A stretch of 64,000 nucleotides of DNA from Lachnospiraceae bacterium (GTDB lineage Bacteria; Bacillota; Clostridia; Lachnospirales; Lachnospiraceae), in assembly GCA_017437065.1 (NCBI GenBank), contig JAFSBX010000071.1:62001-126000 (forward strand). Reading direction: 5' to 3'. The notes beneath the pieces are model-generated. The model searched no databases. It worked only from the letters and a program-made list of their open reading frames with translations, and was not told the DNA's origin. The position numbers and the translations under genes are program-made. Shown here piece after piece: positions 4,055 through 13,749 of this stretch. Position 1 is the first letter of the stretch. Each line of letters opens with the position of its first letter.

Positions 4055-6124
4055 TTAATCTTTTTCAAAAGGTTTATTTAATTCCTCACAGCCTGCCAAT
4101 ACAAATCTTCCGTTTTCAATAATGGTTAATTCTTCGCCTTCTTTTGTAACTGCAAACAGTCTTCCCAATTCATCATAAGGAATCGTGATATCTGTATGAC
4201 AGTTAAAATATGCTTTCGATATATCTGTTTTTCGATATTCGGAAACCAATTCATTTTCTCTTGCAATCAGTTCTTTTCCATCCGGATTGTATACCTTTAT
4301 CTCTTCCGCATGAGAATAACAGGTGTCACCAACTGCAAAATGCGGTCCCATTTTTTCTGCAATCAGAATCGGTAACTTATCGGCTATCTGGTACTTCTCT
4401 GCAACCACATAAGCTGTAGTGTTTGTTCCGATGGCAAACTCGCCAAGTGGTAATGTGTCATGATGGAATAAAACATTGTCTTTAATATATTTCTTATTTT
4501 CTTCCTCTGTATCAAAATTTGTACAGCGGTAATCCGTAACCATACCATCTGTAAATTCTACTTCTAAATTCCGATATTCCAGTTCATTCAGAAATACTCT
4601 GCTCACATGCAAAGTACCGTTTGTTCCTTTCAAAAGCGGTGATGTGAACACTTCTCCTACCGGAATATTTACATCTGCAACGCAGTTTTCAAAGTTAGAT
4701 TCCTTTTGGGGATGCTTTAACTCGTGCAGTTTTACGGTCAGGTTGGTTTTATTTCCTTTCATCCCCTGAATTACCACATGGTCGGCTTTATCCAGACAAT
4801 CAATAATGTTCTGTTGGATTGTTTGATATAGTTTGTAATCCAATGTGTTGATACGGACAATTTCATCAAAAATTTCAGAATAGTTATCTCCTACCTCCGG
4901 TGTCGGGAATGCGATAATGGTAAAACTGCGTTCCTCTCCTTTGATATATTCGTTGACAATGCTTCCTGCCGCGGAAGCAAATTCTACTGAAAGCTTCTGT
5001 TGTTCTTCGGAAAGCTTACATGCATTTTCTTTAAATTCCGGTGCAAACGGTGTTTCACCGAACGTTTCTAAAACCGCAGGACCACCGAATACTGCTGCCA
5101 TTTCTTTTCGCTTTTCATAGCCGTTTCGTAACACTTCAAGTCTTCTGTTAATATACTGCTTGTCCATGAAAAGCGCGGCATCATCTTTATGGTCGAAATC
5201 ATACTGTTTGTTCGGAATCGCGCCGAAATATCCGGCTTTGTTTACTCCGGCACCTGCCCTGTATATCGTTGACTGCAAGCCAATTTTTTCAAAATTCCGA
5301 ACTGCCTGACGTATCATTCTTTCAAACCCAAGACTGAAACGTACCGCGACCGTTTTCTTTTTAGTAATATCTTTATTCGTAACTTCAAAGCCGATTCGAT
5401 AGCCTTCGGTATAAGTTTCTGCCATCAGCTTGATTTTTTCTTCCGGCATGGAAAGAAGATGCTTTGCCGTTTCTAATTCATTATCTGTAATATATTCTCC
5501 AAAACGGTATAAATAGCGTAAATCGGATAAATCACTTTCCATAATAATTTTTCTGGCAAAAGAATGTTCCGGATTAATCTGTTTTTCGATGTTTTCCTCT
5601 GTCATCTCTTCCGAATAATCACTCATAAACCAGTAAATGATTTGTTCCAGTTCTTTTTTATCCGGTTTCTTTGCTTCCTCCTGTGCATATACACAGGCAT
5701 TATATACTTCCAAAAACAGTTCCATACGAATAAGCATTTCTTCCTTTTTCTGTTCATAAGCATACGGAATCATTTCTCTAAGTTTTGTATAAAGATAAGA
5801 AAATAATTGTCCGTATTCGCCTAATTTTTCTACGGCAAAATCCGGATTTCCATAAGATTTTTCATAATGTCCGGGCAAAATATCTTCGTACAGTTCTTTG
5901 TTTTTTTCTGCAAGAGTATTCATATCAGCTTCCTTATACGCACTGCTTCCTACCCATTCATAGGTATCTTTTATCATCAGAATAAACGTGGCACATTTTT
6001 TAAAGTAATCCTGCATATTTTCTGCTATTGTTTCTTCTGTAATAATTTCTGCCACTCTTTCTACTGCTAATTCAAAACGTTCCTCTATCATTTTATTAAC
6101 CATGCCTTTCTTATCATCATTCAC
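4055..6124 (-). CDS. M29-type aminopeptidase with long N-terminal extension
   Basis: Predicted metallo-aminopeptidase of the AmpS/PepS/aminopeptidase T family (MEROPS M29). The C-terminal half has the family's metal-ligand segments in order: Glu in GEVFTSP, Glu in LGEFAIGTNT, His in EKMGPHFAVGD, Tyr/His in TCYSHAEE, and His-Thr-Asp in CHTDITIPYDELG. Typical M29 enzymes are about 400 aa; this one is 689 aa, with about 280 extra, mostly helical and acidic residues at the N-terminus whose role I cannot name. The start is uncertain: MNDDKK (6124), MVNKM (6100) and MIEERF (6088) are close together and no ribosome site clearly decides. It is transcribed alone, between purE and a small membrane protein. 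Confidence 0.85.
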   Translation of the reverse strand: MNDDKKGMVNKMIEERFELAVERVAEIITEETIAENMQDYFKKCATFILMIKDTYEWVGSSAYKEADMNTLAEKNKELYEDILPGHYEKSYGNPDFAVEKLGEYGQLFSYLYTKLREMIPYAYEQKKEEMLIRMELFLEVYNACVYAQEEAKKPDKKELEQIIYWFMSDYSEEMTEENIEKQINPEHSFARKIIMESDLSDLRYLYRFGEYITDNELETAKHLLSMPEEKIKLMAETYTEGYRIGFEVTNKDITKKKTVAVRFSLGFERMIRQAVRNFEKIGLQSTIYRAGAGVNKAGYFGAIPNKQYDFDHKDDAALFMDKQYINRRLEVLRNGYEKRKEMAAVFGGPAVLETFGETPFAPEFKENACKLSEEQQKLSVEFASAAGSIVNEYIKGEERSFTIIAFPTPEVGDNYSEIFDEIVRINTLDYKLYQTIQQNIIDCLDKADHVVIQGMKGNKTNLTVKLHELKHPQKESNFENCVADVNIPVGEVFTSPLLKGTNGTLHVSRVFLNELEYRNLEVEFTDGMVTDYRCTNFDTEEENKKYIKDNVLFHHDTLPLGEFAIGTNTTAYVVAEKYQIADKLPILIAEKMGPHFAVGDTCYSHAEEIKVYNPDGKELIARENELVSEYRKTDISKAYFNCHTDITIPYDELGRLFAVTKEGEELTIIENGRFVLAGCEELNKPFEKD

Positions 6125-13051: not shown

Positions 13052-13074
13052 AGGAAAACTACTACGAGTTTCCT
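13052..13074 (-). terminator. Hairpin at the end of the toxin gene
   Basis: AGGAAAC and GTTTTCCT pair, with the toxin stop codon inside the loop, followed by ATTGAGTTTT. A probable but imperfect terminator. Confidence 0.45.
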
Positions 13075-13601
13075 TTCTTTTTTGCATTATATTTCTCACA
13101 TTCAATTTCTAATCTTTTAAAATCAAGACATCTGTCTTTTCCTTTGTAATTCGAGTCACCATTGCAAAGTCTATATAGACAATTTGCTTTATTAACTATA
13201 ATATCCGCATTTTTACGGCACCAGTTAAGTTCATCAATACACATTTGCTTATAATGTTTGTCACCAACAGAATCATTCTTATTTGTTTTTAAATTAACTT
13301 TAATAAGTTGTAGTTCAGTGACAGGAATCATAAGATTATAGTTCAACACCCCTAATAGCTTTCCGTGCTTATCAATTATTTTATCAAAGTCTGCTCTAGG
13401 GCTCATTTTCTTATGTTTTTCAACCGGATGTGATAGTGGAATTAAATATCTTCTTTCATTGCATACAACAACTATCCCTACATAAATACGATGCTGCTTG
13501 CCAATTTGCGGTGATACAGATGATACTCTGTTATCCACATTATGTAAGTTCCTTATGTATTTCATATCTATCCGATATAGATTTAGTCTTTCTTGTTTCA
13601 T
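13062..13601 (-). CDS. Type III toxin-antitoxin toxin, ToxN/AbiQ-family endoribonuclease
   Basis: A 179-aa protein with the features of ToxN/AbiQ/CptN toxins: an N-terminal strand region (LNLYRIDMKYIRNLH), IYVGIVV, the LIPLSHP segment (residues 53-59) followed by KHKK, the central LNYNLMIPV segment, and the C-terminal helix with Y..M...L.WCRKN. Toxins of this family cut RNA and are held in check by a repeated small RNA made just upstream. I placed the start at 13601, where AAAGGAG precedes the ATG; the open frame continues to 13649 but that part is the antitoxin-region hairpin. An RNA resembling ToxI lies directly upstream with its own promoter. Likely role: phage defence by abortive infection, as for ToxIN and AbiQ. 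Confidence 0.85.
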   Translation of the reverse strand: MKQERLNLYRIDMKYIRNLHNVDNRVSSVSPQIGKQHRIYVGIVVVCNERRYLIPLSHPVEKHKKMSPRADFDKIIDKHGKLLGVLNYNLMIPVTELQLIKVNLKTNKNDSVGDKHYKQMCIDELNWCRKNADIIVNKANCLYRLCNGDSNYKGKDRCLDFKRLEIECEKYNAKKKGNS

Positions 13602-13619
13602 AATACTCCTTTTATAATA

Positions 13620-13718
13620 AATGTGGCTCTGCCAAAAGCACAGCCACATTGCAGAATCACCCTACGGGCAATTCTGACGCTTTTACAACTTCCACTTAAG
13701 GTAGGACTCACCTTTAAT
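13620..13718 (-). ncRNA. ToxI-like antitoxin RNA (single full unit) with downstream hairpins
   Basis: Between a promoter and the toxin ribosome site lies a non-coding stretch with three parts. First (13678-13714, minus strand) an element reading AGGTGA, GTC, CTACCTT, AAGTG, GAAGTTGTAAAAGCG. It closely follows the Pectobacterium ToxI repeat as I remember it (AGGTGA, TTTG, CTACCTTT, AAGTG, then an A-rich cleavage region), including the AAGGT/ACCTT pairing. Second (13652-13676) a perfect hairpin CAGAAT-TG-CCC-GTA-GGG-TG-ATTCTG. Third (13620-13650) an ATGTGGCT/AGCCACAT hairpin, in the position of the attenuating terminator found between toxI and toxN. Known systems usually have several tandem repeats; here I see only one clear unit. 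Confidence 0.7.
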
Positions 13719-13749
13719 ATCATACTACCATATTTCTTGATTTAGTCAA
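13719..13749 (-). promoter_or_regulatory. Promoter of the type III TA locus
   Basis: TTGACT (13744-13749) with TATGAT at 13719-13724 (19-nt spacer) or TAGTAT at 13722-13727 (16-nt spacer). It drives the ToxI-like RNA and, by read-through, the toxin. Confidence 0.6.

Follow-up and report, generated by a model that had tools for sequence, protein, structure and literature searches.

A ToxIN-family toxin–antitoxin locus with a single ToxI-like unit and a conserved hairpin in a gut Lachnospiraceae bacterium

The ToxIN systems of Pectobacterium, Bacillus thuringiensis and Escherichia coli are arranged in the order promoter, ToxI, terminator and toxN, and their antitoxin RNA is a tandem array of units of about 35 nt that follow the pattern GGTGA..CTACC..TAAGTG and carry an A-rich tail. 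ToxN cuts such arrays to single units, which alternate with the toxin in a closed complex, and ToxIN assembles in vitro from either processed or precursor RNA, according to PMC5086642. Much of the cellular ToxI is described as uncut or incompletely cut (PMC5772629). The antiQ/AbiQ system of Lactococcus has 2.8 repeats, of which 1.8 are reported there to be needed (PMC5086642). Search criteria for type III systems, as given in PMC5086642 and PMC8860590, include the tandem array; therefore, a repeat-less clade would be missed. A review that tabulates type III loci of the gut gives, among the rows listed, repeat numbers from 1.9 upward (PMC6315513). In a literature search by title, abstract start or excerpts, which had the main 2012 census outside its range, no description of single-unit ToxI loci was recognised.

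Eubacterium rectale, the host of CptIN, belongs to the same family as the gut bacterium whose locus is described here. CptI has only two repeats, and one overexpressed unit is reported to neutralise CptN fully (PMC4627078); however, CptIN has a toxin of another family, a 45-nt unit and a heterotetrameric complex. The AbiF/RCd22 system of C. difficile is reported likewise to employ a toxin-binding antitoxin RNA, in which two abiF motifs take the place of a ToxI array, but its toxin (Abi_2) and its RNA fold are unrelated to those considered here.

Layout of the locus and number of units

The window analysed is a stretch of 64,000 nt from the Lachnospiraceae bacterium assembly GCA_017437065.1 (contig JAFSBX010000071.1, positions 62,001–126,000, forward strand). 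On its minus strand a promoter is followed by one ToxI-like unit, a hairpin, a terminator-type hairpin and a toxN-like gene (Table 1), and every part listed in the initial annotation (promoter, non-coding element, two hairpins and a ToxN/AbiQ-family gene) is present. Judged by sequence, this is the ToxIN-type order of promoter, antitoxin RNA, terminator and toxin, and the locus is a type III (ToxIN-family) toxin–antitoxin locus carrying one ToxI unit, as had been proposed; the single unit proved to be a conserved trait of the toxin clade. A tandem array (about two units or more), characteristic of the ToxIN family, is absent, and a conserved hairpin follows the unit instead. The segment from 13745 to 13602 folds better than 200 of 200 shuffled sequences (z −4.16). 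Downstream of the toxN locus is a MATE gene, and upstream of it a HAD-domain gene; neither an orthologous flank nor an empty site was found, the best matches of the MATE neighbour, in two other genomes of the genus, being only 38–39% identical.

Table 1. Features of the single-unit locus (positions in the window)
Feature	Position	Strand	Details
-35 box TTGACT	13744..13749	-	assigned by sequence; layout shared by upstream regions of relatives
-10 box TAGTAT	13722..13727	-	16-nt spacing from the -35 box
Alternative -10 box TATGAT	13719..13724	-	19-nt spacing; preferred by the -10 scoring script
Single ToxI-like unit AAAGGTGAGTCCTACCTTAAGTGGAAGTTGTAAAA	13681..13715	-	S1 GGUG/UACC, S2 (G)UCC/GGA, A-rich 3′ tail (where ToxN is predicted to cleave)
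Conserved hairpin, at the position of a second unit	13652..13676	-	10 pairs, covariation
Terminator/attenuator-type hairpin 5′ of toxN	13621..13649	-	11 pairs; stem in the window -19.1 kcal/mol, followed by 9 nt with 4 U
toxN-like gene, ToxN/AbiQ family	13062..13601	-	179 aa, ATG start, AGGAG upstream

Units were counted with R2, a covariance model of the 32-nt unit built from 34 sequences, nine of them from arrays; a first model (R1) had undercounted arrays because its 38-nt matches overlapped. R2 has one match in the window (13712–13682, 48.7 bits), the next best score being 2.8 bits with filters off, and direct repeats of at least 12 nt between 12800 and 14000 are limited to two pairs of 12-mers, both outside the element. 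With R2, three units each were found in an annotated ToxN/AbiQ locus on a Lactococcus plasmid (L193) and in a Fusobacterium locus, and its matches in annotated ToxN/AbiQ loci indicate that the unit of the window is homologous to ToxI. The likeness to Pectobacterium ToxI was checked against an annotated record, the pseudo-ToxI of the Pectobacterium phage phiTE: its sequence is CAGGTGATTCGCTACCTTAAGTGC, and the counterpart in the window is AAAGGTGAGTCC-TACCTTAAGTGG. R2, which was built from relatives of the window locus, gives the phiTE pseudo-ToxI only a weak score (9.4 bits, E 0.051). The additional “degenerate half” of a unit was not borne out. This stretch, AGGGTGATTCTGC, sits at 13663–13651 (it had been placed at 13654–13666), mostly forms the 3′ arm of the covarying hairpin and receives no R2 score; a reading of the second element as a degenerate unit was rejected, as no R2 score was obtained even with filters off. 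Rfam models were silent on the window, which is uninformative because annotated arrays are missed by Rfam as well.

Conservation of the unit and structure of the RNA

Relatives of the toxin were found at 59 loci in a scan of the genome collection. A relative is present in 58 of 397 genomes of the family, and the Pfam family PF13958 occurs in 37 of 391 genomes of the class; one distant match was found in the viral collection, and matches in phages (2 records) and plasmids (131) are all below 60% identity. The 161 toxin reading frames obtained from 152 of 160 loci were reduced to 131 by dropping duplicates, partial toxin starts and short upstream regions, and the 113 toxins of at least 140 aa were used for a tree, each row being classed as array or single-unit from a tandem-similarity score and visual inspection. 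Fifty rows have arrays of two or more units and 58 have a single unit followed by the hairpin (L117 being doubtful), two have a lone unit and no hairpin (in one case, L156, the toxin contains stops), and three are unclear.

Each of 68 non-redundant single-unit loci contains the unit pattern once; the pattern was itself written from their sequences. Among 74 sources of the single-unit class, R2 gives 71 matches in 70 sources, one per toxin (L040 has two toxins). The four misses are L028, whose contig begins inside the unit, L082, in which a diverged unit was recognised by eye, L117, and L059, in which another sequence occupies the place of the unit and only 23 toxin residues matched; the match in L081 is weak (16.8 bits, E 0.024). 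By contrast, the model finds three units in each of the array loci with the closest units (L094, L078, L091, L096, L090 and L159). Across 28 array loci, picked for ToxI-like units from 60 sources, two or more matches were found in 18, one in six and none in four, so that R2 undercounts distant arrays. Within group 1 of the single-unit class, mean pairwise identity is 0.93 in the unit, 0.80 in the hairpin stem, 0.32 in the hairpin loop, 0.86 in the terminator stem and 0.41 in the terminator loop.

L040 carries two different single-unit systems on one contig, 2.6 kb apart (2890–2921 and 5495–5527), and genome G269 has a single-unit system (L071) together with a three-unit system (L094). Upstream of the toxin in L077 and L128 are three-unit arrays whose units contain an extra stretch and a small hairpin and which, by eye, represent an enlarged type of ToxI unit. 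A scan of the 397 family genomes that started from the RNA gave matches in 40, from which 30 loci were taken, and 10 of these have no toxin-profile match at E up to 1. Units without a toxin occur singly in L164, L166, L177, L182, L183 and L189 and as a pair in L184; L186, L190 and L191, also negative for the toxin profile, are arrays or array ends, although L191 seems to have the start of a toxin, and the toxin of L165 is broken. The toxin-less loci may be remnants, or they may encode the antitoxin alone and perhaps give protection from the toxin.

The structure of the RNA was examined in an alignment of 55 of 67 single-unit RNAs, all from groups 1–3; seven RNAs of group 4 and those of L032, L036, L040, L047 and L081 stand outside it, and the set of 67 itself omits L020, whose contig begins 5 nt before the unit. 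Stem S1 (GGUG/UACC) is nearly invariant, except that 23 of 55 rows have A.G instead of its U-A pair. The outer pair of S2 (GUCC/GGAC) is G-C in 20 rows, A-U in two and unpaired in 33, counts that include a one-base misalignment of some group 3 rows. With 89.5% of S1 cells and 82.3% of S2 cells paired over the 55 rows, both stems of a pseudoknot are possible, and covariation within the unit is thin, one S2 pair having changed on both sides. An additional outer S1 pair, between the base before GG and the base after ACC, is paired in only 35 of the 67 RNAs and is not claimed.

The second hairpin is the best-supported structural part of the RNA: 95.6% of its cells are paired, eight of its 10 pairs have changed on both sides, and its covariation is 0.521, as against 0.252 when shuffled and at most 0.128 when slid. 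Its loop varies (identity 0.25 over 55 rows), and the CA that follows it has a pairwise identity of 0.96. The terminator stem has 94.7% of cells paired, with seven of 11 pairs changed on both sides. RNAalifold recovers both the second hairpin and the terminator from the 55-row alignment; within the unit this program, which cannot predict pseudoknots, gives only a two-pair stem (GG with CC) and not S1. A second pseudoknot within the second element (GCG/CGC) was rejected, because its covariation is not above that of shuffles and group 3 has lost one of its pairs. The tail AAAAGC connects one unit to the following one in arrays such as L094 and L091; in groups 1–3 that tail, with GCG, runs into the hairpin, which thus stands in the place of unit 2. 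In the array relatives L094 and L078 the last unit is followed almost directly by the terminator.

The toxin and the origin of the single-unit class

The toxin of the window matches Pfam ToxN_toxin (PF13958) with 140 bits (cut-off 25; E 9e-41), which is its sole Pfam match at E ≤0.001, and the PADLOC AbiQ model at 4e-31. It also matches, by sequence, the PDB chains of ToxN from Bt (3e-11), Ec (3e-10) and Pa (4e-10) and of AbiQ (8.5e-6), and lacks any match in NCBIfam up to an E value of 1. Membership in CptIN or TenpIN was rejected, given that PF13958 (ToxN) is the only Pfam match and the unit measures about 35 nt. Four usable comparisons gave dN/dS values of 0.059 (L003), 0.056 (L004), 0.073 (L011) and 0.060 (L013), the synonymous difference being 0.54–0.66 against L003, L004 and L011; L005, L019 and L030 are saturated at synonymous sites, and the 0.000 printed for them is no value. 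The toxin is under purifying selection, and this, together with the conservation of the RNA, means that both toxin and RNA parts appear maintained.

The active site, as aligned, departs from that of the described toxins. Residues K33, T52, S53 and K55 of Pa ToxN align with R, S, H and V in the window, positions 52–55 being encoded at 13433–13422. Arginine at position 33 and serine at position 52 are common in the family (32 and 31 of 50 array toxins, respectively), and a serine at the Thr52 position corresponds to the reported Ser51 of AbiQ. At the position of Ser53, a residue other than Ser is rare in array toxins: it is Ser in 47 of 50 array toxins (non-Ser in 3 of 50), His in 26 of 26 group 1 toxins and in L153, Lys or Arg in 20 of 20 group 2 toxins, and Ser in 10 of 10 toxins of groups 3 and 4. 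Ser53 has thus been replaced by His and by Lys/Arg on separate branches within the single-unit clade. At the position of Lys55, Val is found in 22 of 26 group 1 toxins, and seven of 50 array toxins have a residue other than Lys. The changes look functional rather than like decay, because they are fixed within groups, and the single-unit state is independent of the Ser53 change, because groups 3 and 4 keep the serine.

In the 113-row tree, the single-unit class forms one group of 57 rows, with weak support (92/38), apart from the outlier L117, and this group is nested, together with six array rows and one unclear row, within a well-supported group of 64 rows (100/99). When L117 is left out of the clade count, having a very long branch and no unit match, a 72-row tree places the 57 rows on one side of a branch (95/73) that is present in 97% of 200 bootstrap trees. 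The evidence that the single-unit toxins form one clade is good but not decisive. Because the neighbours of the class are arrays in both trees, one contraction of an array would be its simplest history. L102 (G200:C9) has a lone unit of another type, without a second hairpin and with an open toxin frame; its relatives L101 and L103 have two units, and it would be a separate contraction.

The layout of one unit and a conserved hairpin is shared by close relatives of the toxin gene, and repeats may therefore not be required in systems of this sort. A repeat-less clade separates the function of the unit from that of the array and makes it a testable question whether the array serves ring assembly, antitoxin dose or the response to phage; the window, with one unit, and L094, with three that are nearly identical to it, permit a direct comparison.

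How a single unit may act

In 63 of 67 loci, 4–11 nt separate the best -10 box from the GG of the unit; therefore, transcription should start at the unit or slightly ahead of it, and in the window a start is expected near position 13715, which would give a 5′ AAA tail without a cut. Since transcription would start there, the promoter would set the 5′ end of the unit. The reading that we favour, and hold to be somewhat better than an even bet, is that the usual ToxN ring is fed by single-unit transcripts, with the hairpin as a stand-in neighbour of the cut site. The unit would fold as an H-type pseudoknot; ToxN would cut once, in the AAAA tail, and stay bound to the product; and units from separate transcripts would alternate with ToxN in the usual closed complex, so that three transcripts could feed one ring. 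The hairpin, in replacing unit 2, would give the cut site a structured 3′ neighbour or stabilise the precursor, and the terminator would keep the antitoxin in excess over toxN read-through. The system would be expressed, its toxin active, and it may serve in phage defence. This reading is supported by the one unit found in the window and, per toxin, in 70 of the 74 sources of the class, by the grouping of the class as one clade beside array loci such as L094 with a nearly identical unit, by the covariation of the hairpin, and by the retention of the A-rich tail and the GC that lead into the next unit in arrays. In group 1, moreover, the unit is 93% identical and the hairpin loop 32%, whereas the toxin of the window differs from those of L003, L004 and L011 by 0.54–0.66 at synonymous sites. 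The initial annotation had argued that a one-unit antitoxin would need a different stoichiometry; such a change is possible but not required, because ToxN itself makes single units, processed ToxI assembles in vitro and one CptI unit suffices when overexpressed.

Some observations weigh against feeding of the usual ring by single units. Described arrays seem, each in its own context, to depend on more than one repeat: PMC5086642 gives the repeats needed as 2.5 for Pectobacterium ToxI and 1.8 for antiQ, with 0.8 repeats inviable, although 0.8 is less than a full unit. A single phage pseudo-ToxI unit is reported as not antitoxic, two substitutions being held responsible, in a study whose test format was single aligned units (PMC3475682). 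Compensation for a lower yield of units via the terminators is not clear: stems of single-unit loci are slightly stronger than those of arrays (median -18.4 versus -16.9 kcal/mol, Mann-Whitney p 0.007, on rows that are not independent), and the number of U residues does not differ. A compensatory role of stronger terminators is not claimed, the difference being small. Finally, Lys55Ala is reported to abolish the toxicity of E. coli ToxN (PMC8860590), and, given the changes at the Ser53 and Lys55 positions, cleavage by the toxin of the window is not assured.

The hairpin is open to two other interpretations. It may be part of the inhibitor, a two-part, non-repetitive RNA that escapes cutting wholly or in part and keeps ToxN in a complex of smaller size, for example 1:1. 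Its fixed place after the A-rich tail and GCG, its strong covariation, the conserved CA behind it and the two kinds of replacement of the otherwise conserved Ser53 are in keeping with such a role, but a freely varying loop on a compensatory stem fits a structural spacer better than a surface read by its bases, groups 3 and 4 keep Ser53 despite their single unit, and the A-rich cut-site tail is retained. The conservation of the hairpin allows an inhibitory role and does not show it, and we regard this interpretation as unlikely, if worth serious attention. A more radical form, which we think improbable, is a clade that has abandoned the logic of the repeat array, in which a non-repetitive pseudoknot-plus-hairpin RNA, perhaps uncut, inhibits a ToxN whose active site has been rebuilt (Ser53 replaced by His or Lys), the complex of the two not being a three-fold ring. 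Alternatively, the hairpin might control toxN, by attenuation or by protecting the 5′ end of the read-through mRNA after the ToxN cut, and have no part in inhibition. Lying between the predicted cut site and the terminator, it would remain with the toxN mRNA after cleavage, and its structure is conserved more than its sequence; however, the almost direct passage from last unit to terminator in L094 and L078 means that control of toxN in general needs no such hairpin, and we consider this role decidedly improbable.

An array in decay, left with one good unit plus half of a degenerate one, or a locus on its way to extinction, could account for the GGTGATTC-like stretch noted earlier, repeat contraction is easy, and toxin-less units exist elsewhere. 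Yet the supposed half has no unit score, the unit pattern appears once in each of the 68 loci, the hairpin covaries and the toxin has dN/dS values of 0.056–0.073, which leaves decay very hard to believe. We likewise give scant credence to a supply of further units in trans by another array of the same genome. The genome does possess a second ToxN locus, L002, with an array of about three 45-nt units, but its array belongs to another type, R2 detecting no unit in it at E up to 1, and the only R2 match at E ≤0.001 in the genome is that of the window. About 250 nt upstream of the L002 array, on contig 111 of the same genome (L002 positions 1750–1665, minus strand), lies a match to the Rfam “skipping-rope” RNA (57.4 bits).
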